This document shows, piece by piece, positions 9,460-22,447 of a stretch of DNA of 29,516 nt. Positions within the stretch are counted from its first letter, which is position 1. Each line of letters opens with the position of its first letter. The stretch is from a virus: positions 1 to 29,516 of IMG/VR virus record IMGVR_UViG_3300022752_000287. One strand, 5' to 3'. The position numbers and the translations under genes were made by a program. Under the pieces are notes generated by a model. It made no database searches. It was not told where the DNA came from and saw nothing but the letters and a program-made list of their open reading frames with translations.

Positions 9460-10393
9460 TGAAGAATTTATTGAGATCTGGAACAAATTAAATAGCCCAA
9501 GCCTGGTCGCGCAGCATCTTGGGATCAACGTTCGGAACGTTTTTGCGCGACGCGACAGGATCAGCAAAATATACAACGTTGAATTAAACACGTCGGCTGA
9601 TCAACGCATCAACTCCAATTCGCCAACATTGGCGATGCCAGCCGATAAGGTCAGAGCAATCGCCAACATCAGCGGCTATGTGATCGTGTTCAGCGATGCG
9701 CACTTTTTCCCAGGCGAAAAAAGCATCGGCTACCAGGCGCTGATCAAGCTGATCAAGCAGCTCAAGCCCAAGCTCATCATTGGTAATGGCGACTTGCTTG
9801 ATGGCGCGACCATCCACTCCCACGGACCTATGGGGTGGGAAAGCCCACCAACTTTGAAGCAGGAATTAGATGCAGTGCAAGACGCGATGTCAGGCATCGA
9901 GAAAGTTGCCAAGGGCGCGATTCTGCATCGGACGGTCGGCAATCACGACATCCGCTTTGATCGTCGCTTGGCTGGCCAGGTGCCCGAATACCGCGACATC
10001 GCAGGCACCACGCTCAAGGATCACCTGCCACTGTGGACCGTCTCTTGGTCGGTCATGGTCAACGGCAACACGATGATCAAGCACCGCATCAACGGGGGCT
10101 TGCACAGCGCATACATGAACACCCTCCGTGGCGGGGTCTCAACAGTCACAGGGCATACGCATTTGCTTGAGGTCAAGCCTTGGAGCGACTACACGGGCAG
10201 GCGCTGGGGCGTTAGCACCGGCATGCTGTCCGATCCCGAAGACGCTCAATTCAGATATGCCGAAGACAGCCCGCGTCCTTGGTGCCAGGGCTTTGCAGTT
10301 CTCAAGTACGACGACAACGGCATGCTGCTGCCACCGGAGCTCTGCGAGGTGGTGGGCGGCGTTGCTTACTTTCGCGGCGAGCCAGTGCTGTGA
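9437..10393 (+). CDS. Calcineurin-like metallophosphoesterase with N-terminal helix-turn-helix
   Basis: 318 residues. Residues about 7-45 look like a helix-turn-helix (EFIEIWNKLNSPSLVAQHLG then NVRNVFARRDRI). From about 80 a metallophosphoesterase follows with the expected motifs: SDAH (86-89), GNGDLLD (116-122), GNHD (168-171) and GHTH (239-242), together binding two metal ions. Such enzymes cleave phosphomono- or phosphodiesters, including nucleic acids and cyclic nucleotides. The DNA-binding-like front end suggests a nucleic-acid substrate or sequence-guided action, which is inference. It lies between fibre and lysis genes, where phages often carry accessory genes. The stop overlaps the endolysin start (TGATG). 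Confidence 0.85.
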   Translation: MTKKTCSDEEFIEIWNKLNSPSLVAQHLGINVRNVFARRDRISKIYNVELNTSADQRINSNSPTLAMPADKVRAIANISGYVIVFSDAHFFPGEKSIGYQALIKLIKQLKPKLIIGNGDLLDGATIHSHGPMGWESPPTLKQELDAVQDAMSGIEKVAKGAILHRTVGNHDIRFDRRLAGQVPEYRDIAGTTLKDHLPLWTVSWSVMVNGNTMIKHRINGGLHSAYMNTLRGGVSTVTGHTHLLEVKPWSDYTGRRWGVSTGMLSDPEDAQFRYAEDSPRPWCQGFAVLKYDDNGMLLPPELCEVVGGVAYFRGEPVL

Positions 10394-11799: not shown

Positions 11800-11889
11800 G
11801 GAGGCTTGGGTGAGCGGTTTAAACCAGCAGTCTTGAAAACTGCCGAAGGGGTGACCCTTCCGTGAGTTCGAATCTCACAGCCTCCGCCA
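11800..11889 (+). tRNA. tRNA-Ser (UGA anticodon)
   Basis: Complete 90-base cloverleaf. Acceptor stem GGAGGCT (11800-11806) pairs with AGCCTCC (11879-11885); discriminator G; encoded CCA (11887-11889). Anticodon stem GCAGT/ACTGC with loop CTTGAAA puts anticodon TGA at 11834-11836. There is a long variable arm, as expected for serine, and a T arm GTGAG-TTCGAAT-CTCAC. It is the only bacterial-type gene in the window and sits 49 bases from the integrase stop, convergent to it, so it probably marks the integration target. An encoded CCA and a perfect acceptor stem suggest it is functional. Confidence 0.96.
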
Positions 11890-11937: not shown

Positions 11938-12966
11938 TTATTTAATGGGCTTAACAGTCTCACCAACGCGCCGATAGACCTTTTGCGTGATCTCGTGCTC
12001 GGTGTGACCAAGCAGCTTGCTAGCGTGCTCCAGGTCGGTCTCTGACGCAGCCTTGGGTCGAATATCTCGGAATTGGAAAGCCTGAATTCTGGAAGCCAGC
12101 GCCTCGTCTGCGACCTTTTGTGCTTTCAGGCGTGCATTGTCAAAGCGCACCCTCAAGGTGTGCTTTTTGAGTGGCACGCCGCTTGCCGTGGCAATCAGGT
12201 AAACGCTTGAGACCTTCCTTGCGCGGATGCGCTCAATCACGGCGCCGAGCTGCGTGCCAGCCAAGACAATGCGCAGCTTGCGCTTGGTTTTGTTTTGCTC
12301 GACTTCAAGCGCACCGTCCTTGATGTCAGAAAAGCGCATCTTCAGCACGTCAGCCGGACGTTGTCCGGACAGATAAGCCAAGTCCATCGCGTCGCGCAGC
12401 TCATCGCACGCGGCCTGGTAGACAGCGTTCCACACCGCATCGTCGGCGTAATAGTCGCGCGGCGTTTCGCGGTTCTTTCGCACACCGCGGCAAGGGTTCT
12501 CCTTGGCCGTGTATCCCCACTCTCTTGCCATGTTCCAAACGTGCGACAGCAGCGCGAGCTCGCGGTTGGCACGCACTGGAGCAGCTGCGCCGCGCTTGTC
12601 CCGATACTGCGCAACGTGCTGCGGTGTGATCGCATCGATGGGCGCTGCGTCAAAGACCTTGCGCAGCATGGCGAGCTCGGCCAGGTTATTGGCTTGTGTT
12701 TTGGGCGCTTTGTTGGGTATCACCTCGCGCTCATAGCGGCTGAAAATGGGTGACATAAAGCCAGTTTCTGGTGGTGCCTCGCGGCACTCCAACTCAGCCC
12801 ATTTACGCTTGGCTTCGTTCAAATCATTGCCAAGCGGGATCTTGACACGCTTGCCGTTGACGTAACCGTTGTAATAAAAAGATTGCCAAGTCTTGCCGCT
12901 CGCCAGCTGCTTGCGCACGCGGATCATTCGGGGCGGCAGATCTCGGTTGGTGCTCTTGGGTCGCAT
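11938..12966 (-). CDS. int: Tyrosine-type site-specific integrase
   Basis: 342 residues. An N-terminal arm-binding-type region (about 14-50, WQSFYYNGYVNGKRVKIPLG) precedes a core-binding helical domain (about 70-160). The catalytic domain shows Arg203 (SGQRPADVLKMR), a basic beta hairpin with Lys (KTKRKLRIVL), R300-D-I-R303, His321 (LLGHTEHEIT) and the nucleophile Tyr331. The usual HxxR is RDIR here, as in a known phage subgroup with FRDIRPKAAS-like text. It would catalyse attP-attB recombination with IHF and probably an excisionase. It is last in the leftward operon, reading towards the tRNA and attP-like region. Confidence 0.95.
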   Translation of the reverse strand: MRPKSTNRDLPPRMIRVRKQLASGKTWQSFYYNGYVNGKRVKIPLGNDLNEAKRKWAELECREAPPETGFMSPIFSRYEREVIPNKAPKTQANNLAELAMLRKVFDAAPIDAITPQHVAQYRDKRGAAAPVRANRELALLSHVWNMAREWGYTAKENPCRGVRKNRETPRDYYADDAVWNAVYQAACDELRDAMDLAYLSGQRPADVLKMRFSDIKDGALEVEQNKTKRKLRIVLAGTQLGAVIERIRARKVSSVYLIATASGVPLKKHTLRVRFDNARLKAQKVADEALASRIQAFQFRDIRPKAASETDLEHASKLLGHTEHEITQKVYRRVGETVKPIK

Positions 12967-12975
12967 AAGGCAACG

Positions 12976-13206
12976 TTACCCTAAAACAGAAAAATCAGGT
13001 GACCAGGCTGTCTCTGCACCGGTGGCCGTTGGCCGCACGCCTGCAAGCCTCATGCGAGCGTACCAACGGCCAACGATGGCACGACCGGCACCGTTGACGA
13101 CATAGACCCAGCCTTGCTTGTCGAGCCAATCGCGCTGCGAGCCAGTGTGCTTGTAGCCCGTCACCTCGATGAGCTCCTCTGGCGTCAGAAATTCCGAGTC
13201 AATCAT
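12976..13206 (-). CDS. DUF4224-type small protein next to integrase
   Basis: 76 residues, ending nine bases before the integrase start. MIDSEFLTPEELIEVTGYKHTGSQ followed by RDWLDKQGWVYVVNGAGRAIVGRWY matches the DUF4224 pattern (FLTxEELxxLTGxxxxxxQ...L...G...G.P.V). It looks like a small winged-helix or excisionase-like DNA-binding fold. Its position before int fits a directionality or regulatory factor, but that role is inferred. The C-terminal 20 residues vary from the family. It overlaps the resolvase gene by eight bases. Confidence 0.75.
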   Translation of the reverse strand: MIDSEFLTPEELIEVTGYKHTGSQRDWLDKQGWVYVVNGAGRAIVGRWYARMRLAGVRPTATGAETAWSPDFSVLG

Positions 13207-13678
13207 GGAGCTTTCTGTAGTGGGCCAGGAGCGCCGCTTCAGCGCGTCCGTCGTCCTTCAAGCGCTTGAATTCACCAGCCTGCGATGGCCACAGCTGCGC
13301 AGCCTTGGCCCTGGCTGCGTCCTTGCCGCTGTTGAGCTTGAGCGCCTTTTTCCAGCTCGCAGGCGTGACCGTGGTCGCGGGTATCGACAAGCCAGCCAGC
13401 ACGCCAAGGACAACACCGTAGGCCTGGCCAAAGGAGAACATTGAGGACACGCCTTGACCAGGCATGGCATTGACTTGCTCAACCACAGCGACCGTGTCAG
13501 CCACGTTGTAGAGGCGCAGCTCGGAGGCCAGCATCTCAGGGCTCATGCGGCGCTTGGCCTTGCCAGCGACGGTCACCTCGACCACCGGCATGTCAAACAC
13601 CTGCACCAGTGCGCCGCTGCGCTCCAGGATGGCGACCGCACCACCAGCGCCAGGATCGACTCCGATGATGAAGCTCAT
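13199..13678 (-). CDS. RuvC-like Holliday junction resolvase
   Basis: 159 residues. The RNase-H-fold motifs of RuvC are visible: Asp8 in GVDPGAGGAVA, Glu67 in VAVVEQVNAMPGQG, SMFSFGQAYG (79-88), and Asp142/143 with Glu147 in KDDGRAEAAL. The family cuts four-way DNA junctions symmetrically in the presence of Mg2+. In phages it resolves recombination or replication branches before packaging. The start overlaps the nuclease gene stop by ATGA. Length is close to cellular RuvC (about 170). Confidence 0.9.
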   Translation of the reverse strand: MSFIIGVDPGAGGAVAILERSGALVQVFDMPVVEVTVAGKAKRRMSPEMLASELRLYNVADTVAVVEQVNAMPGQGVSSMFSFGQAYGVVLGVLAGLSIPATTVTPASWKKALKLNSGKDAARAKAAQLWPSQAGEFKRLKDDGRAEAALLAHYRKLHD

Positions 13679-14844
13679 TGCGCCATCTGCTCAAGGTTGC
13701 GCAAGCTCTTTGCAATTTTGCTTCGTTGCGTGCGCTCCTTTTTGGTTTCAGGCTTTGAGTCTTTGTCTAGATCTTCTGGCGTGTTCCAAGCAATGCCACC
13801 GCTGATTACTTCAGCGCCAGGGAACTCTTCTTTGATCGCTGCGGCCTCTCCAAGCAAGACGCTAGGGCAACGCTGCAGCTCAGATGATGTGAAAGCTTGG
13901 CCGTAACCTTCAACCGTCTCATTGCCATTGACAAACGTTTGACCGGTTTGGCGGTGCTTGTAGGCAACCCAGCTTGGGCCTCCGTCGATCGCCTGCGCGT
14001 AGGGCGTTAAAGCAGGGATCAACAGATGATCACCGCAACCTTTTCGTTGCTTGGCTTCATCAAGTTTGTTGTTGTGATGACCGCAATGCCATGCGCCATT
14101 CACAATAGGCGAAGCATGACAACACGTTCGACAGTTTGCATCAGCGGCAATGCCGCCATGACAAACTTCGTGAAACGTACAGCCCTTGCATTGCCAGTTT
14201 GACGGGTCGTTTGAAATTGGCTCCGGCGGCGTTGGCATCGCAATTAAGCCTTGAGCGTAGTCAATCAGATTTTCAAAGTGATCTTTATCAAAATGAACCC
14301 ACTCAACGTACACGTCATCGGTGTCTTTGTTGACCGCGAGATAAAGCGCACGCTCAAGTTCCATCAAACCCATGTAGATCTGCAGCTGATCGAAGTGCTG
14401 CGGCTTGCTTCCAGCAACTTTTTTTGACAACAAATCGGCAAAGCTCTTGGCGTTGTGCGTCTTAAATTCAATCACCGCAGCTGTCTTTGGCGCTTCTGGC
14501 AAGCCTTTAGCAACACCGTCAAGGCTTCCACCAAAGTGCCCGTCACAGGCGCTCACGCGCCACTGCTCGCCAGTGTTGGGATCGGTGTCCCACACCTGGG
14601 CGCCGATGCCGCGCAGTTCTTCCAACAGACGCAGCTCTTCGCGTTTGCCCGTGTCAAACATGCGCAGCACGCGGCCTGAAAACTGAGCTTTTTTTACCCA
14701 ACGCCAGGTCAGCCACACGTACCGCGCGCACGGGTGGCCGATGATGCTGGCGCCCATGTGCGGCCGGTGCTCTTGCGGTTTTGATTCATACCAGCGCACG
14801 ATCGCGTGCGCCGTTGTGTGCTGGGTTTCAGGTAGCGCAGCCAT
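13675..14844 (-). CDS. PD-(D/E)XK (Cas4/RecB-like) nuclease with extra cysteine cluster
   Basis: 389 residues. The nuclease core has Glu69/70 in TGKREELRLLEEL, Asp109 in GGSLDGV, Glu126-x-Lys128 in AVIEFKTH and QLQIY (153-157, the QxxxY motif). Cys39 plus Cys219, Cys222 and Cys228 (WQCKGCTFHEVC) are placed like the four iron-sulphur cysteines of Cas4/AddB-type nucleases. A second cysteine/histidine group follows (about 238-270, CRTCCH...WHCGHH...GC) and the protein is about 150 residues longer than plain Cas4. It probably resects DNA ends to feed the adjacent annealing protein; substrate polarity is unknown. Confidence 0.85.
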   Translation of the reverse strand: MAALPETQHTTAHAIVRWYESKPQEHRPHMGASIIGHPCARYVWLTWRWVKKAQFSGRVLRMFDTGKREELRLLEELRGIGAQVWDTDPNTGEQWRVSACDGHFGGSLDGVAKGLPEAPKTAAVIEFKTHNAKSFADLLSKKVAGSKPQHFDQLQIYMGLMELERALYLAVNKDTDDVYVEWVHFDKDHFENLIDYAQGLIAMPTPPEPISNDPSNWQCKGCTFHEVCHGGIAADANCRTCCHASPIVNGAWHCGHHNNKLDEAKQRKGCGDHLLIPALTPYAQAIDGGPSWVAYKHRQTGQTFVNGNETVEGYGQAFTSSELQRCPSVLLGEAAAIKEEFPGAEVISGGIAWNTPEDLDKDSKPETKKERTQRSKIAKSLRNLEQMAQ

Positions 14845-14846
14845 GA

Positions 14847-15311
14847 CTAGCCCCAGGGGCGTTGAGATTTGGCCGGGGCTGTAGCTGCGGCGGGCTTGAC
14901 CTGAACCCGCGCCGCAGCGGTCGCAGCAGCTGGTTTGTAATCCCAGATCACGTTGCGCGTCGGGTCCTTCTTGTCGGTGCCAATCGTTGCGATAAAGGCC
15001 AAATCGTGCAACTCCTCGGAGTCTTCGATCTCATTCAAGCCCACGGCCATGCACAGGCGCGCCAGCTGCTCTTGCGCGATCTTGACGGTCTGCTGGCTTA
15101 AGTTGTCCAGGTTCAAACGCTCCCAGTGGCGGCGACCGGAAAACGTACCGCCGATGATCTGCATCTCAAGCTCAAGGTAGTGGCCATTGCCAGCCTTGGT
15201 CGGCTTGGTGTCTGACTTGATAATGATCATCTCGTAGTCACCCTCGGGCAACGCTTCGTAACTGCGCGGTGTGATTTCGACGTTGAATGCTTTGAAGTTC
15301 AGTTGTGCCAT
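14847..15311 (-). CDS. DUF669 family protein, possible ssDNA-binding partner
   Basis: 154 residues from the ATG at 15311, preceded by AAAGGAAA; the longer open frame upstream overlaps the ATPase gene and lacks a ribosome site. MAQLNFKAFNVEITPRSYEALPEGDYEMIIIKSDTK..., LELEMQIIGGTFSGR and the DNLSQQTVKIAQEQLARLC helix match DUF669. This OB-fold-like family is found with Sak4-type ATPases and thought to act in phage recombination. The C-terminus is a low-complexity Ala/Pro/Lys tail (AAATAAARVQVKPAAAT) ending KSQRPWG, reminiscent of SSB tails. Function inferred. Confidence 0.85.
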   Translation of the reverse strand: MAQLNFKAFNVEITPRSYEALPEGDYEMIIIKSDTKPTKAGNGHYLELEMQIIGGTFSGRRHWERLNLDNLSQQTVKIAQEQLARLCMAVGLNEIEDSEELHDLAFIATIGTDKKDPTRNVIWDYKPAAATAAARVQVKPAAATAPAKSQRPWG

Positions 15312-15312
15312 T

Positions 15313-16065
15313 TCAGTTTCCTTTCGAGGCCAAAGCCTCAGCAAATGAGCCCCAGGCAAGGGGCATGTTTTTAAGACCAAAGCGATTGCCACCCATGTGT
15401 GCAGGGTGAGGCTCGACGTGCAAGATCCGCTTGCCGGTTGTGCGGGCCTTGACTTCCTTGCTGCCGTAACCGGCATCTGACTCGACCGTCGTGATCTGAT
15501 AGTTGGCCCAGCCGATCACGTCAGCCCACTCCATCACTAGGGCGCTTGCCCGATCGTTGAGCTTCAAGACGTATTGGTCATAGCCGTCATGCAACGGGCT
15601 CTCAAAGCGCTTGATCTTGTCGTGCGCGATCAAGATCACGGCCATGTTGCGTTGCTGGCGCAGCGCTTCAAAGCCTGTCAACAAATTGCGCCATTCCTCG
15701 GCAGCGGCGACGTAACCCTTGCCATAGCCTGGCGCCTCGATCGATGCCCACTTGTTGACTTCGCAAACGTGCTGCTGCACCAGCGGCTCAAGCCAATCGA
15801 GCGAATCGAGAAACACGGTTTGAAAGTCGTGCTGCTCTCTGAGCAGTGTCTTCATGGCTTGGTAGACGTCTTGCAATGACGAAGCAAGCGGAAAGGCGTT
15901 CGCATCGACCGCGTCGGCGCCGTCTTCGGTCAGGATGCCGACAGCACGAGGCGCAGAGGCCGCAAAGGTTGTCTTGCCGATCTTGCCTGGGCCTGCGACG
16001 ACGATCTTGGGCGCACGCATGCGTTTGGTCTTGCAGATGGATGAGAGATCAAAGGCCATGCTCAT
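15313..16065 (-). CDS. Sak4-like RecA-fold ATPase / annealing protein
   Basis: 250 residues; AAGGAG sits just upstream of the first ATG. Walker A GPGKIGKTTF (25-34) and Walker B TVFLDSLDW (83-91, Asp87) define a minimal RecA core. The sensor-like LIAHDKIKRF (about 145-155) and a late GKRILHVEPHPAHMG segment follow the Sak4 pattern. Sak4 proteins promote single-strand annealing and low-fidelity strand exchange in temperate phages. It overlaps the upstream gene (ATGA) and is one base from the DUF669 gene. With the nuclease and resolvase they form a complete recombination set. Confidence 0.88.
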   Translation of the reverse strand: MSMAFDLSSICKTKRMRAPKIVVAGPGKIGKTTFAASAPRAVGILTEDGADAVDANAFPLASSLQDVYQAMKTLLREQHDFQTVFLDSLDWLEPLVQQHVCEVNKWASIEAPGYGKGYVAAAEEWRNLLTGFEALRQQRNMAVILIAHDKIKRFESPLHDGYDQYVLKLNDRASALVMEWADVIGWANYQITTVESDAGYGSKEVKARTTGKRILHVEPHPAHMGGNRFGLKNMPLAWGSFAEALASKGN

Positions 16066-17924: not shown

Positions 17925-17964
17925 CTGGACGTTGAGTCAATCGCAACTTGGTGGAGATTTACAG

Positions 17965-18207
17965 ATGACCATTCCCACAGTTCACTTTCTTTCGCCCGCG
18001 TACCACGTCATTGAAAAACTGGGGGGCAAAACGCTGGTGTCAGATGAGCTTGGCTTAAATAAATCAGCTTTATCAAGGTGGTGCGCTCCAAGGCCGGAGG
18101 GCACGGGCGGCATGGTGCCACAGCGCTACTGGCCGCAGTTGATGGAGATGGCTCGTCGTAGGGGCGTTGTCATTACCCTGGAGGAATTGGCCGCTGTTGA
18201 GGTTTGA
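17965..18207 (+). CDS. Cro-like (YdaS-type) helix-turn-helix regulator
   Basis: 80 residues from the ATG at 17965, which has GGAG nine bases upstream; an upstream TTG is less likely. MTIPTVHFLSPAYHVIEKLGG then KTLVSDELGLNKSALSRW is a helix-turn-helix. WCAPRPEGTGGMVPQRYWPQLMEMARRRG is a pattern I know from small phage regulators opposite the repressor. It is first in the rightward operon and probably turns off the repressor side on induction. The replication gene follows. Confidence 0.8.
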   Translation: MTIPTVHFLSPAYHVIEKLGGKTLVSDELGLNKSALSRWCAPRPEGTGGMVPQRYWPQLMEMARRRGVVITLEELAAVEV

Positions 18208-18229: not shown

Positions 18230-20278
18230 ATGACCAACTCCGACTTTTTGTCTGAAATTTATGGCCATCTAGACTCCGGTGTTTACGGCTGGGTGGCAAG
18301 TTTCCGCGAAAGCCCTGATGGTGCGCCACCATCCGTTTGGACGGGCAGGCCTTATCGAGGAGTGCCCGCGCACGCCCAGCTGATTGATCGCGCAGTTGAT
18401 GACAACACCTACTTTTGCACGTCGGTGCTCACCACAACCGCTGACGGCGAGCTCATCAGACGCAAGGAGACTTTTCATCGCCTCGCGGTGTTGGCGCTTG
18501 ATGACGTGCAGCTTGCTGACGTGGCCAATTTGTCCTACGCGATCCAGACGAGCCCAGGCAAGCACCAGGTTGGCATCTTGCTTGACCCTGATGATCCCGA
18601 TTGCAGCAACGCCGCACTGGTTGACCGCGTGATGATTTCGCTCTCAACACGAGGGCGAACAAACGATCGCTCAGGCAATGGCTGCGTGCGTTATGTGCGT
18701 TTACCGCGTGGCGCGAACACCAAGCAACGCGCTGCCGGTGTGTGGCGCGTACAGCTTGAGATCTGGAATCCCAGCGTGCGTTGGTCGCTTGATGACGCTT
18801 GCCAGGCAGTTGGCATTGATCTGGACGATCTGCGTCAAGAGCCTGTGCAGCCCAACAATCGCCAAGCCGCAAAGGGATCTCACGCGGGCGAAATGATCGC
18901 AGGCATTTCTGGACCCGTGGATCAGCGCTCATATCACGAAAACCTTACAAGGCTTGCAGCCTCATTGGTTGCTGGTGGCATGTTTGCGGGCGCTGCGGTT
19001 GAGTTTCTGTATAGCCTGATGGATCAGGTTAAGCCCGAAACTAGCCAGCTTGATGAGCTGCGCCGCTGGCAGGCTCGCCGTGCTGAGATCCCGCGTGCGG
19101 TGCGATCAGCAGAGCAGTTTGCGCCCTCGGTGCGACAGCCACCGTCGATCACGGTTAACTTAAACGCGGCCAACACAGCGCAAACTCAGCCAAACGACTT
19201 AGTCCCGATGGATTGGACGTCATTGGCGCACAGTGAGCCTGAGCCCACAGCCTGGCAGCTTCAAGGTTGGTTGCCTGAGCGAACTGTGACGCTGCTTGCG
19301 GCTAACGGCGGTGTTGGGAAGTCGAATCTGTCGCTGCAGATCAGTGTGGCGCTTGCTCTTGGAAAACCTTTCATGGGCATTGAAACCCAGCCCAGCCGCG
19401 TCTTGGTTTTATCGGGTGAAGATGAGGCAAGGACGGTTCACTTTCGCGTGGCCAACATCTGCGCCGATCAAAACGTGCCGATGCACGCGTTGCGTGAGAA
19501 CCTGGTGGTGTACGACTTGACACAATCTGATTGCGTGCTCTGGCGCAACGGCTATCCGACCGAGCGCATGCAGTGGCTTGCTGACACTGCGGTGCGCAGC
19601 AAAGCACAGACGATCGTGATTGATAACGCGTCGGACGTTTTTGCTGACAACGAAAACGACAGGACAGCGGTCAGGGGTTTTATGCGAGCCTTGAATCTGA
19701 TTGCGCACACCACCGGCGCTGCAGTCTTGTTGCTAGCGCACGTTGACAAGGCGTCGGTGCGTGTCGGGGCGGGCCTGGACAGCAACTCGACCTTCAGTGG
19801 ATCGACCGCGTGGAATAACTCAGCCCGCTCGCGCTGGGCGATGGTGCGAGATGGCAATGCGATCTATCTAAGGCACGAAAAGTGCAACCTTGGGGCGCTT
19901 CAAGAGCCCATCAACTTAGAGTTTGATGTCGTCAGTAAAACGTTTAAGCTCTTTGGAACTATTCCAGGCACTATTTTTGCGGCTCAAATGTTGCGAAAAG
20001 CACAATACAATGCGATTTTAGACATGGTTGCAGAGGCTAACGAAGAGGGTAGCAATCTTTCAATGCAGCCGAATGCACCAAACAACATTTACAAAAAACT
20101 CAAAACACACGAGCAGTTTCCATTACGCATGGACCGCAAGACATTTTTTAGTCGTTTGCAAGATCTCATTGGTGATGGATCGCTTGCTGGTGAGGAATAC
20201 GAAGGCAAAAACAGGGAAAGGCGCGAGCGCGTCGTCGTGACCGCTAAAGGCCACGAGCAAATGGAGAAGCAAGCATGA
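18230..20278 (+). CDS. Primase-helicase-like replication protein (RepA-type ATPase)
   Basis: 682 residues from the ATG at 18230 (GAGGAA seven bases upstream); an ATG at 18209 is also possible. The N-terminal part (to about 190) contains CVRYVRLPRGANTKQR near residue 155, a text typical of RepB-like primase domains. A linker follows, then a RecA/DnaB-like motor: Walker A LLAANGGVGKSNLSL (about 355-369), Walker B QTIVIDNASD (about 460-469) and a LLLAHVDK sensor (about 502-510). The C-terminal 100 residues look like a winged helix (KTHEQFPLRMDRKTFFSRLQ). It should load at the phage origin, prime and unwind DNA. It is the only replication enzyme in the window; the host supplies the polymerase. 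Confidence 0.82.
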   Translation: MTNSDFLSEIYGHLDSGVYGWVASFRESPDGAPPSVWTGRPYRGVPAHAQLIDRAVDDNTYFCTSVLTTTADGELIRRKETFHRLAVLALDDVQLADVANLSYAIQTSPGKHQVGILLDPDDPDCSNAALVDRVMISLSTRGRTNDRSGNGCVRYVRLPRGANTKQRAAGVWRVQLEIWNPSVRWSLDDACQAVGIDLDDLRQEPVQPNNRQAAKGSHAGEMIAGISGPVDQRSYHENLTRLAASLVAGGMFAGAAVEFLYSLMDQVKPETSQLDELRRWQARRAEIPRAVRSAEQFAPSVRQPPSITVNLNAANTAQTQPNDLVPMDWTSLAHSEPEPTAWQLQGWLPERTVTLLAANGGVGKSNLSLQISVALALGKPFMGIETQPSRVLVLSGEDEARTVHFRVANICADQNVPMHALRENLVVYDLTQSDCVLWRNGYPTERMQWLADTAVRSKAQTIVIDNASDVFADNENDRTAVRGFMRALNLIAHTTGAAVLLLAHVDKASVRVGAGLDSNSTFSGSTAWNNSARSRWAMVRDGNAIYLRHEKCNLGALQEPINLEFDVVSKTFKLFGTIPGTIFAAQMLRKAQYNAILDMVAEANEEGSNLSMQPNAPNNIYKKLKTHEQFPLRMDRKTFFSRLQDLIGDGSLAGEEYEGKNRERRERVVVTAKGHEQMEKQA

Positions 20279-21062: not shown

Positions 21063-21400
21063 AGCATGACCCTAATGGGCTCAATCAGCACGCACCAGGC
21101 GCCAAGCTCGATGCCGGAAAGATCAGGCCAACGCTGATCATCAACTCGATGCACCGAGCCATTCGCGCGGTGGTTGAAGTTAGCGAGTACGGCGCGACCA
21201 AGTACAGCGCAGACGGCTGGCAGTACGTTGAAGATGGGTTTAAGCGCTACACAGACGCGATGCACCGGCATTTACTGGCTGAGAACGACGCGCTGCACGA
21301 TCCGCAGACAGGACTCACACACGCAGCGCACGCGGCTTGGAACGCATTGGCACGCCTTGAGCTGCTGCTGCGGGAGATCGAGGAAAGGGGTGAGCCATGA
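21032..21400 (+). CDS. dATP/dGTP diphosphohydrolase-domain protein
   Basis: 122 residues from the ATG at 21032; a start at 20909 would add out-of-family text. GAKLDAGKIRPTLIINSMHR, VVEVSEYGATKYSADGWQYV, RYTDAMHRHLLAEND and GLTHAAHAAWNALARLELLL match the phage family annotated as dATP/dGTP diphosphohydrolase (DUF5664-like), an all-alpha MazG/HD-like fold. Family members act on or sense purine dNTPs. Acidic and His residues that could bind metal are present (E near 50, H75, H98, H101). It may tune nucleotide pools during replication. Confidence 0.75.
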   Translation: MEAARQRHGLEHDPNGLNQHAPGAKLDAGKIRPTLIINSMHRAIRAVVEVSEYGATKYSADGWQYVEDGFKRYTDAMHRHLLAENDALHDPQTGLTHAAHAAWNALARLELLLREIEERGEP

Positions 21401-21600
21401 TCACCAACTTACCCGCTCATCAATCAGCGCAGCTGCCTTCGGTCATTGAGATGCGCATGGAAATGCTTGCCCAACAGGCCGATGCCTTGACGCGCCAGGC
21501 GCAGCGCCTGCGCGAGCAGGCCGAGGCAAGCTACCGGCAAATTTGCTGTGGCGGTGCTTGCAACCAAGGCCATGAGTGCCCGCTTGAGGGTCTCAAATGA
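21397..21600 (+). CDS. Small coiled-coil protein with C-terminal cysteines
   Basis: 67 residues, ATGA-coupled. PSVIEMRMEMLAQQADALTR then QAQRLREQAEASYRQ is a clear amphipathic helix. ICCGGACNQGHECPLEGLK brings four Cys and one His in 13 residues, a possible metal knuckle. Last gene of the early rightward run; a repeat-rich non-coding block follows. Confidence 0.6.
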   Translation: MITNLPAHQSAQLPSVIEMRMEMLAQQADALTRQAQRLREQAEASYRQICCGGACNQGHECPLEGLK

Positions 21601-21601
21601 C

Positions 21602-21759
21602 TTGCACGCACTTAGCACGCAGTTCGCACGCACTAGTACGTGCAACCGCGTGCAAAAGCCAGCCCCCTGATGATGAGAGACCCCCTTTAAAGGGGTCTCA
21701 TCAGGGGGTTTTGCACTGCACGCACTTACTTAGTATAGGTGTGGAGTAAGTGCGTGCAG
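21602..21759. repeat. GCACGCACT iteron-like repeats and a 15-bp inverted repeat
   Basis: GCACGCACT occurs at 21604-21612, 21626-21634 and 21718-21726, shortened GCACGCA at 21615-21621, and in reverse as AGTGCGTGC at 21749-21757. TTGCACG (21602-21608) faces CGTGCAA (21639-21645 and 21649-21655). CTGCACGCACTTACT (21716-21730) and AGTAAGTGCGTGCAG (21745-21759) form a perfect 15-base-pair hairpin with a 14-base loop. The block lies in the longest non-coding gap after the replication genes. It could be a replication origin, an operator array or a packaging-related site. Confidence 0.7.
21663..21712 (+). terminator. Long imperfect hairpin terminator ending the early operon
   Basis: CCCCTTTAAAGGGG (21682-21695) is the tip of a roughly 20-base-pair stem with small bulges: GAGA pairs with TCTC, TGAT with ATCA, and CCCCC (21663-21667) with GGGGG (21704-21708). 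Four T follow. It lies 63 bases after the last early gene, inside the repeat block. It should stop rightward early transcription unless antiterminated. Confidence 0.75.
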
Positions 21760-21828
21760 ATTTTGGCCGGTGATGAGCTGGATTTTTTTCATCACTTTTT
21801 TTGTCTGCTTTGATGAGGAAAGCGCACG

Positions 21829-21888
21829 ATGATTGGAATGAATCAACGTTTAGTTGTAACAGGCGGTGGCGATGAGCGCGTTGATTGA
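21829..21888 (+). CDS. 19-residue leader peptide overlapping the Q-like gene
   Basis: An ATG with GAGGAA nine bases upstream opens MIGMNQRLVVTGGGDERVD and stops at TGA 21886-21888, 17 bases inside the following gene. The Q-like gene itself has only a modest ribosome site, so this peptide may serve translational coupling. Too short to assign by similarity. Confidence 0.4.
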   Translation: MIGMNQRLVVTGGGDERVD

Positions 21889-22447
21889 GCGCGTTGTCAC
21901 CGCGTTGGGGAGCGATGACTTGCGGCTGCGCGAGACCGCATGCGATCTGGACAAGGTGATCGCGTCGGGCTGGTCTGGCCGGTCACGCAGCCTGGGCGCG
22001 TTGGCCTTCCGGTCGCGCTACACGCTGGACGTCGAGCGCACCAGGCAGTTGCTGCGGTCAGTGTCCAGGCTGGCGCTGGCAAAAGCTCGCCAAAAAAAAA
22101 GGGGGGGCACCCGTGATGAAATTGAGCGGCTGGCCTGCTGCGTGTGCTTTTGGTGGCTGTCGGACAAGTGCAGGACATGCGCAGGGCGCGGCTGCATGGT
22201 CATTGGCCACCAGCAGCACGTCAGCAACATCGTCTGCCAAACATGCGGGGGTACCGGCATCACGCCCATGCCGACGGCCAAGGACGCAGAGCTTGAGTGG
22301 AGCGAGGACGAGTTCGATTACCGCTTCCGCGAGCTCGTTGAAACGCTGGACGCGGCCTTTGAAGATTTCAGTCGGGGCACTGCTCGCGCGTTGAGAACGG
22401 GGCAGGATGAAGACCTATTGCAAGGTGTTGAGAAAAGTGTGGCATAA
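21872..22447 (+). CDS. Zinc-finger late regulator, Q-antiterminator-like
   Basis: 191 residues from ATG 21872 (GTG 21866 would add two). A helical N-terminal half precedes a DnaJ-like zinc region: CRTCAGRG (100-107) and CQTCGGTG (122-129), the CxxCxGxG pair of lambdoid Q proteins of the phage 82/HK022 type. An acidic helix with EWSEDEFDYRFRELVETLD ends the protein. Position fits: the last regulator before HNH and terminase genes. Q proteins bind DNA at the late promoter and make RNA polymerase ignore terminators, of which this genome has several. Within the gene lies an A9G7 tract (22092-22107). RusA- or NinX-like alternatives are less likely. Confidence 0.6.
   Translation: MSALIERVVTALGSDDLRLRETACDLDKVIASGWSGRSRSLGALAFRSRYTLDVERTRQLLRSVSRLALAKARQKKRGGTRDEIERLACCVCFWWLSDKCRTCAGRGCMVIGHQQHVSNIVCQTCGGTGITPMPTAKDAELEWSEDEFDYRFRELVETLDAAFEDFSRGTARALRTGQDEDLLQGVEKSVA

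Follow-up and report, generated by a model that had tools for sequence, protein, structure and literature searches.

An intergenic block at positions 21602-21760 of a temperate phage genome, an IMG/VR viral contig analyzed here over its full 29,516 bp (the window), carries direct repeats, inverted repeats and two hairpins between a 67-aa open reading frame (21397-21600) and the gene for a 193-aa Q-like protein (21866-22447). The arrangement raises the question of what this DNA does for the phage, and an initial annotation had proposed a candidate origin or a switch. Comparison with about 150 relatives indicates that the block is probably the phage's replication origin (ori). Below, we discuss its architecture, its association with the replicase gene, the protein domain predicted to read it and the alternative roles.

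Architecture of the block and its surroundings

Iterons come first in the block, as three 11-bp copies in tandem; they are followed by H1, a long hairpin with a bulge, and then by H2, a perfect hairpin of 15 bp. All of the repeats and hairpins listed in the initial annotation were found where it had placed them. Iteron 1 (GCACGCACTTA, 21604-21614), iteron 2 (GCACGCAGTTC, 21615-21625) and iteron 3 (GCACGCACTAG, 21626-21636) lie on the plus strand as a head-to-tail array with an 11-bp period, an arrangement kept in relatives. Direct copies of GCACGCAC(T) start at 21604, 21615 (with one mismatch, GCACGCAGT), 21626 and 21718, and an inverted copy lies at 21749, which confirms the reported four direct copies and one inverted copy; the TTGCACG/CGTGCAA pairs are likewise present, at 21602 versus 21639 and 21649. 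Two further elements lie on the minus strand, an inverted degenerate iteron (AGTACGTGCAA, 21635-21645) that is 91% complementary to 21602-21612 and an additional partial inverted copy (CGCGTGCAA, 21647-21655). Beyond the block, a single GCACGCACT copy occurs, at 12569. Taken by itself within the window, the iteron array is weak and unexceptional: it scores 18 of 22 matches at lag 11, other window sites also reach 18 matches at other lags, and shuffles reach 17. The significance of the array comes instead from its conservation in relatives.

H1 (21662-21709) folds as DNA into 12 + 6 pairs with a 7-nt loop and a 5'-arm bulge of 5 nt (TGAGA), at an energy of about -17.8 kcal/mol for 21660-21712 (DNA parameters), and in the window it is followed by TTTT. 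The bulged hairpin described earlier is therefore present, with 18 pairs instead of the 20 assigned to it. H2 (21716-21759, plus strand) pairs 21716-21730 with 21745-21759 around a 14-nt loop, exactly as the perfect 15-bp hairpin had been described. Its 5' arm carries the iteron GCACGCACTTA (21718-21728) and its 3' arm the inverted copy; the copy of iteron 1 in the 5' arm is exact, with 12 identical nucleotides (21603-21614 and 21717-21728). H2 is the only hairpin in the window with perfect arms of at least 12 bp, and 15-bp arms arose in 0 of 40 dinucleotide shuffles of the whole window, so that within the window alone it is the sole element clearly above chance. The H2 apex (TAGTATAGGTGTGG, 21731-21744, plus strand) is the window's form of a conserved ...AGGGGTGTGGGG box and a putative primase start site; it holds AGGTGTGGA alone, short of the full GGGGTRTGGGG.

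Just 3' of the block and ahead of the Q-like gene, a 7-bp hairpin (GTGATGA/TCATCAC) with a 12-nt loop is followed by T7 (21770-21802, plus strand). It could be an intrinsic terminator or an AT-rich unwinding stretch, and its place as an origin component is not established. An Rfam scan returned a chance miRNA match alone, far under the cut-off, and blastn of the block against phage records gave zero matches.

Several neighboring features describe the phage itself. An intact tRNA-Ser (TGA anticodon, 11800-11889) stands beside a tyrosine integrase (11938-12966, minus strand) and marks a probable attachment site; judging from the order of the genes, the temperate phage genome would be excised or circularly permuted. 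A recombination cassette (13199-16065, minus strand) comprising a RuvC-like resolvase, a Cas4-domain exonuclease, an SSB-like protein and a Sak4-like annealing ATPase is divergent from the replicase operon. At 17932-18207 lies the gene for a 91-aa HTH-like protein of Cro/YdaS-like appearance without a library match, which nearly all relatives also have immediately ahead of the replicase. The Q-like protein encoded downstream of the block is an antiterminator candidate with a DnaJ-type zinc finger and a weak match to PHROG 127 (9e-4).

The replicase and conservation of the block beside it

The replicase gene (18230-20278, plus strand) starts at a conserved Met at 18230, within a longest open reading frame of 703 aa that opens at 18167. 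Its product combines an archaeo-eukaryotic primase (AEP), a helix bundle, a RepA-type helicase and a C-terminal winged helix (about residues 600-703 of the long reading frame). In an AlphaFold2 model (mean pLDDT 73, pTM 0.41), residues 24-225 form an alpha/beta N-terminal domain, residues 240-318 the helix bundle and residues 366-600 a RecA-type core, with a winged-helix-like unit at the C-terminus (600-703). The helicase region matches PF13481 (AAA_25) at 3.1e-35, and RSF1010 RepA (1g8y) is both its best PDB sequence match (6e-8) and a fold match (TM 0.74). The primase assignment draws on a Pfam profile, invariant residues and a sequence motif. With E <= 1 as the limit, Pfam RepB_primase is matched by 25 of 32 relatives (best 2e-4); the window's replicase reaches E 0.035 against PF16793, below the cut-off. 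An acidic triad of motifs I and III (D112, D113 and D167) is invariant in 32 sequences, and its counterparts in RepB', by a correspondence drawn by eye, are D77, D78 and D134 (PMC4434180). Motif II carries Q in place of H (SPGK[HF]Q, with S129, P130 and Q134 invariant) and was aligned with SPKNYQ of RepB' by hhalign at a low overall probability; the hhalign match between the replicase N-terminus and RepB' is weak, and a model of the N-terminus alone was too poor in quality for searching. In sum, the replicase resembles the RepB' primase and RepA helicase of RSF1010 joined with a winged helix in one chain. Full-length relatives were absent from the searched cultured-phage and plasmid records, in which the helicase part alone was matched, with coverage of 29-44% among the matches listed.

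Viral relatives were collected with a replicase search (68 loci) and a profile search (at least 80 loci, overlapping in part with the 68), which yielded 71 unique downstream regions, each 350 nt or longer. A strict detector, which required three 11-bp iterons and then a hairpin whose arms are iterons, found the block in 34 of these 71 regions and in 0 of 30 shuffles; the H2 apex criterion adds 12 relatives, so that at least 46 of 71 hold parts of the block, and several of the remainder (L182, L186, L170, L006 and L171) show variants by eye. The block lies 3' of the replicase, either immediately or past up to about 2.6 kb of inserted genes. Iteron sequences vary among phages (for instance TGCACGCGCTA, TGCGGTCGCAC, TGCACCGAACC and GTGCGCTTGCT) while the 11-bp period stays constant, and an iteron serves as the H2 arm in all 34 strictly detected relatives. 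GC-rich hairpins occur at the position of H1, and part of their 5' arm is often unpaired. The initial annotation had held that a lack of the repeats in related phages would count against its proposal; the repeats are conserved.

The apex of H2 is asymmetric, strand-specific and, unlike the iterons, the best-conserved part of the block. An alignment of 25 H2 elements is nearly gap-free around CTnnG-WWAGGGGTGTGGGG, with GGT.TGG invariant. The pattern GGGGTRTGGGG, which was picked after inspection of the viral loci, occurs 31 times within 3 kb 3' of the replicase and 0 times in the other 473 kb of these loci; looser patterns are poorly enriched (33 inside versus 49 outside). The apex differs in about one-third of relatives (L061, L030 and L067, for example), and the G-box is thus not universal. 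In three relatives whose H2 lacks it (L061, L168 and L015), GGGGTGTGGGG lies on the opposite strand inside H1, about 145 nt after the replicase, and the priming box has possibly moved to the other hairpin and strand. In L056, an extra hairpin with a second GGGGTGTGGGG apex (10180-10225) precedes the usual H2.

Because the apex pattern was chosen post hoc, an independent set was needed as a check, and 76-80 loci from bacterial genomes (Comamonas, Stutzerimonas, Rhizobiales and Rhodobacteraceae) were examined, whose replicases are 28-40% identical in the helicase part. Near-identical loci occur within this set, which makes the following counts partly non-independent. GGGGTRTGGGG occurs, on either strand, 18 times within -100 to +600 nt of the replicase stop and twice in 865 kb elsewhere, with one of these two outlying copies at -116. 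In 32 of 76 loci, the first 150 nt past the replicase stop are filled with tandem 10-12-bp repeats, compared with 0.66% of control windows.

For the stem of H2, RNAalifold on a MAFFT alignment produced a G-U-rich inner helix that describes H2 poorly, and pairing was therefore assessed by flank swapping; the stem register differs from relative to relative. Across 21 relatives, H2 arm pairing averages 9.7 within a genome versus 6.2 with swapped flanks (0 of 401 permutations). As the H2 arms are iteron copies, this result shows that their inverted arrangement is kept; a hairpin in single-stranded DNA and a dyad of binding sites in the duplex are both compatible with it. A perfect DnaA box (TTATCCACA) lies shortly 3' of H2 on the same strand in L056, L173, L177, L178 and L039. 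No TTATCCACA box was found elsewhere in the searched downstream regions of relatives, and none occurs near the window's block.

Iteron recognition, origin model and alternative roles

The domain likely to read the iterons emerged from a comparison of iteron distance with protein-domain distance across 27 distinct loci. With helicase divergence controlled, the iterons co-vary with the winged helix (partial r 0.63, p 0.001, under a label permutation that accounts for shared ancestry incompletely), and across the same 27 loci they show no independent co-variation with the primase. The association with the winged helix also holds given the candidate terminase small subunit (TerS) of the relatives (partial r 0.76, p 0.001), whereas candidate TerS given the winged helix yields a partial r of -0.20 (p 1.0). 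Such co-variation could be inflated by linkage of the iterons to the gene's 3' end; the winged-helix value remains at 0.47 (p 0.001) for iterons that lie 700 nt or more away from that end, which lessens the worry of joint exchange without removing it. The winged helix is thus a good candidate for the iteron-binding domain, and we regard binding by it as likely. Two binders had been suggested at the outset, and this pattern favors the one encoded at 18230, the replicase. The other, the Cro-like protein encoded upstream of the replicase, carries little independent signal (partial r 0.21, p 0.011 overall, with non-significant values of 0.12 and 0.24 in two subsets), and the co-variation speaks against this 91-aa HTH-like protein as the iteron reader.

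The earlier proposal of a candidate origin gains support from the linkage of block and replicase, the conserved apex and iterons, the DnaA boxes of five relatives and the winged-helix co-variation; GC skew over the window, one of the checks suggested with that proposal, shows no origin signal. In the mechanism that we envisage, the C-terminal winged helix of the replicase would bind the array of three 11-bp iterons as well as the copies within the H2 arms. The RepA-type domain would then load as a hexameric helicase and open the DNA, as its domain content suggests, with host DnaA possibly assisting at the adjacent TTATCCACA box in some relatives. Once unwound, H1 and H2 would fold as single strands, and the archaeo-eukaryotic-type primase at the N-terminus would begin a primer on or close to the GTG in the H2 apex, as the analogous RSF1010 RepB' and pRN1 ORF904 suggest; a host polymerase would extend the primer. 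RepB' recognizes a hairpin and a nearby GTG (PMC4434180), and ORF904 starts at GTG, with GTG mutations in its stem-loop tolerated and replication kept (PMC4234260). On these analogies, we give priming at the H2 apex about an even chance.

An origin could also operate with H1 and H2 unread by the phage primase, H2 being an iteron dyad or cruciform, or its apex a host-factor site or single-strand promoter, while host DnaA, DnaB and DnaG prime. The inverted iterons of the H2 arms could by themselves explain the palindrome, and the variable apex of some relatives, the mutable GTG motifs of the pRN1 stem-loop and the perfect DnaA boxes 3' of H2 in five relatives all fit such an arrangement. The window and most relatives are without a DnaA box, however, and the apex is asymmetric, strand-specific and better conserved than the iterons; we consider this arrangement unlikely. 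Chance repeats without function are a negligible prospect: the window's array barely exceeds the shuffle maximum, but the conservation of order, iterons and apex across relatives refutes this reading.

A transcription switch or terminator between early and late genes would explain why H1 is strong and followed by TTTT, why a second hairpin with T7 comes next and why the adjacent gene is Q-like. Yet H1 in relatives is mostly without a T-run (L001, L005, L030 and L067), and TTTT 3' of H1 occurs only in the window; judged as an intrinsic terminator, a conserved GC-rich hairpin with a direct T-run, H1 fails, and 21770-21802 with its T7 fits better, albeit with a long loop. A terminator also needs neither iterons nor a conserved apex. 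The downstream late module consists of the Q-like gene and HNH/Terminase_4 packaging genes in the window and of another protein upstream of TerL in relatives; the window's Q-like gene is found in one relative only, from which we conclude that the late-control module has been exchanged. The block stays by the replicase while this module varies, and the switch proposed in the initial annotation is accordingly very improbable. A cos/pac site for packaging, recognized by the small subunit of the terminase, was considered because a candidate TerS gene, identified by position alone and with no Pfam match, lies within 190-550 nt downstream in many relatives. Repeats are typical of cos/pac sites, and the block does stand upstream of candidate TerS/TerL genes in relatives, but the iterons track the winged helix rather than candidate TerS, and the window's unrelated packaging module accompanies the same block, leaving this role barely credible. 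None of the three, late-gene switch, terminator or packaging site, is supported as the main role of the block; local termination may be a side role.

If the block is the origin, it and the replicase would be a single portable cassette, kept intact as late and packaging modules are swapped. Phages and prophages of Burkholderiales, Stutzerimonas and Alphaproteobacteria may share such self-contained replicons as a widespread class, in which one primase-helicase-winged-helix protein is paired with a downstream origin of 10-12-bp iterons and an inverted-iteron hairpin presenting a near-constant GGGGTRTGGGG priming box. Iterons and winged helix would co-diversify and create many mutually non-recognizing origin types, with the priming box fixed, a generalization toward which we lean neither way. 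Few phage origins are mapped outside the classical models, and the DNA sites matching primase-helicase fusion replicases are usually unknown. The signature of GGGGTRTGGGG near the replicase stop together with 10-12-bp iterons would locate the origin in many uncultivated phages and prophages, and the comparison directly predicts the protein domain that reads it. A literature search for the apex motif returned mitochondrial, G-quadruplex and other unrelated contexts, with no mention of a phage origin among the matches listed.

Comparison with known replication systems

Lambdoid origins carry tandem iterons within gene O and are served by the dedicated initiator O/P. The present block shares the tandem iterons and the dedicated initiator, but it is intergenic and 3' of the replicase, the O/P pair is absent, and the initiator brings its own helicase and primase. 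In layout and motif II, the replicase agrees with the PrimQH family of the PrimPol-PV1 supergroup, which combines an AEP domain, a PriCT-like helix bundle, a RepA-type ATPase and a winged helix with Q in motif II (Kazlauskas et al. 2018, PMC5862659). In its passages on these proteins, that study infers origin recognition by the winged helix and describes no DNA element of this kind (PMC5862659).

Replicons of the pRN1 type likewise use a multidomain protein (ORF904) with AEP primase, helicase and C-terminal winged helix, a GTG-starting primase and an origin with a stem-loop just 3' of the replicase's own gene (PMC4234260). The stem-loop of pRN1-type replicons is an essential one; downstream of the phage replicase gene a conserved stem-loop is present. 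The pRN1 helicase belongs to SF3, whereas that of the phage is RecA/RepA-type and thus places it outside the pRN1 group, and the pRN1 origin is without the tandem iterons of the phage.

The oriV of IncQ plasmids (RSF1010; RepA, RepB' and RepC) resembles the block in combining iterons with adjacent primase-recognition hairpins and a G-rich/GTGTG element (PMC6925257, PMC4434180), and in its RepA-type helicase and RepB'-type primase. The activities that IncQ divides among separate RepA, RepB' and RepC proteins reside in one 703-aa protein in the phage; no separate RepC-like gene was identified adjoining the replicase, and the iteron binding performed by RepC is predicted for the C-terminal winged helix. 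The phage has three iteron copies of 11 bp instead of the 3.5 copies of 22 bp in an RSF1010-type plasmid, its H2 arms are iteron copies, and some of its relatives carry a DnaA box. IncQ origins hold a pair of ssi hairpins, one on each strand and each with a GTG 3' of it, whereas the phage has one GTGTGG hairpin, on the plus strand, with the GTG within the apex. Lacking both an ssi pair with 3' GTG and separate Rep proteins, the block is not a member of the IncQ oriV group. The comparison nonetheless links IncQ plasmid, pRN1 and phage replication, and makes one-protein, three-domain initiation testable with small DNA fragments. By analogy, the block may be viewed as an IncQ origin condensed to one protein, or as a pRN1 origin with iterons and a RepA-type helicase.
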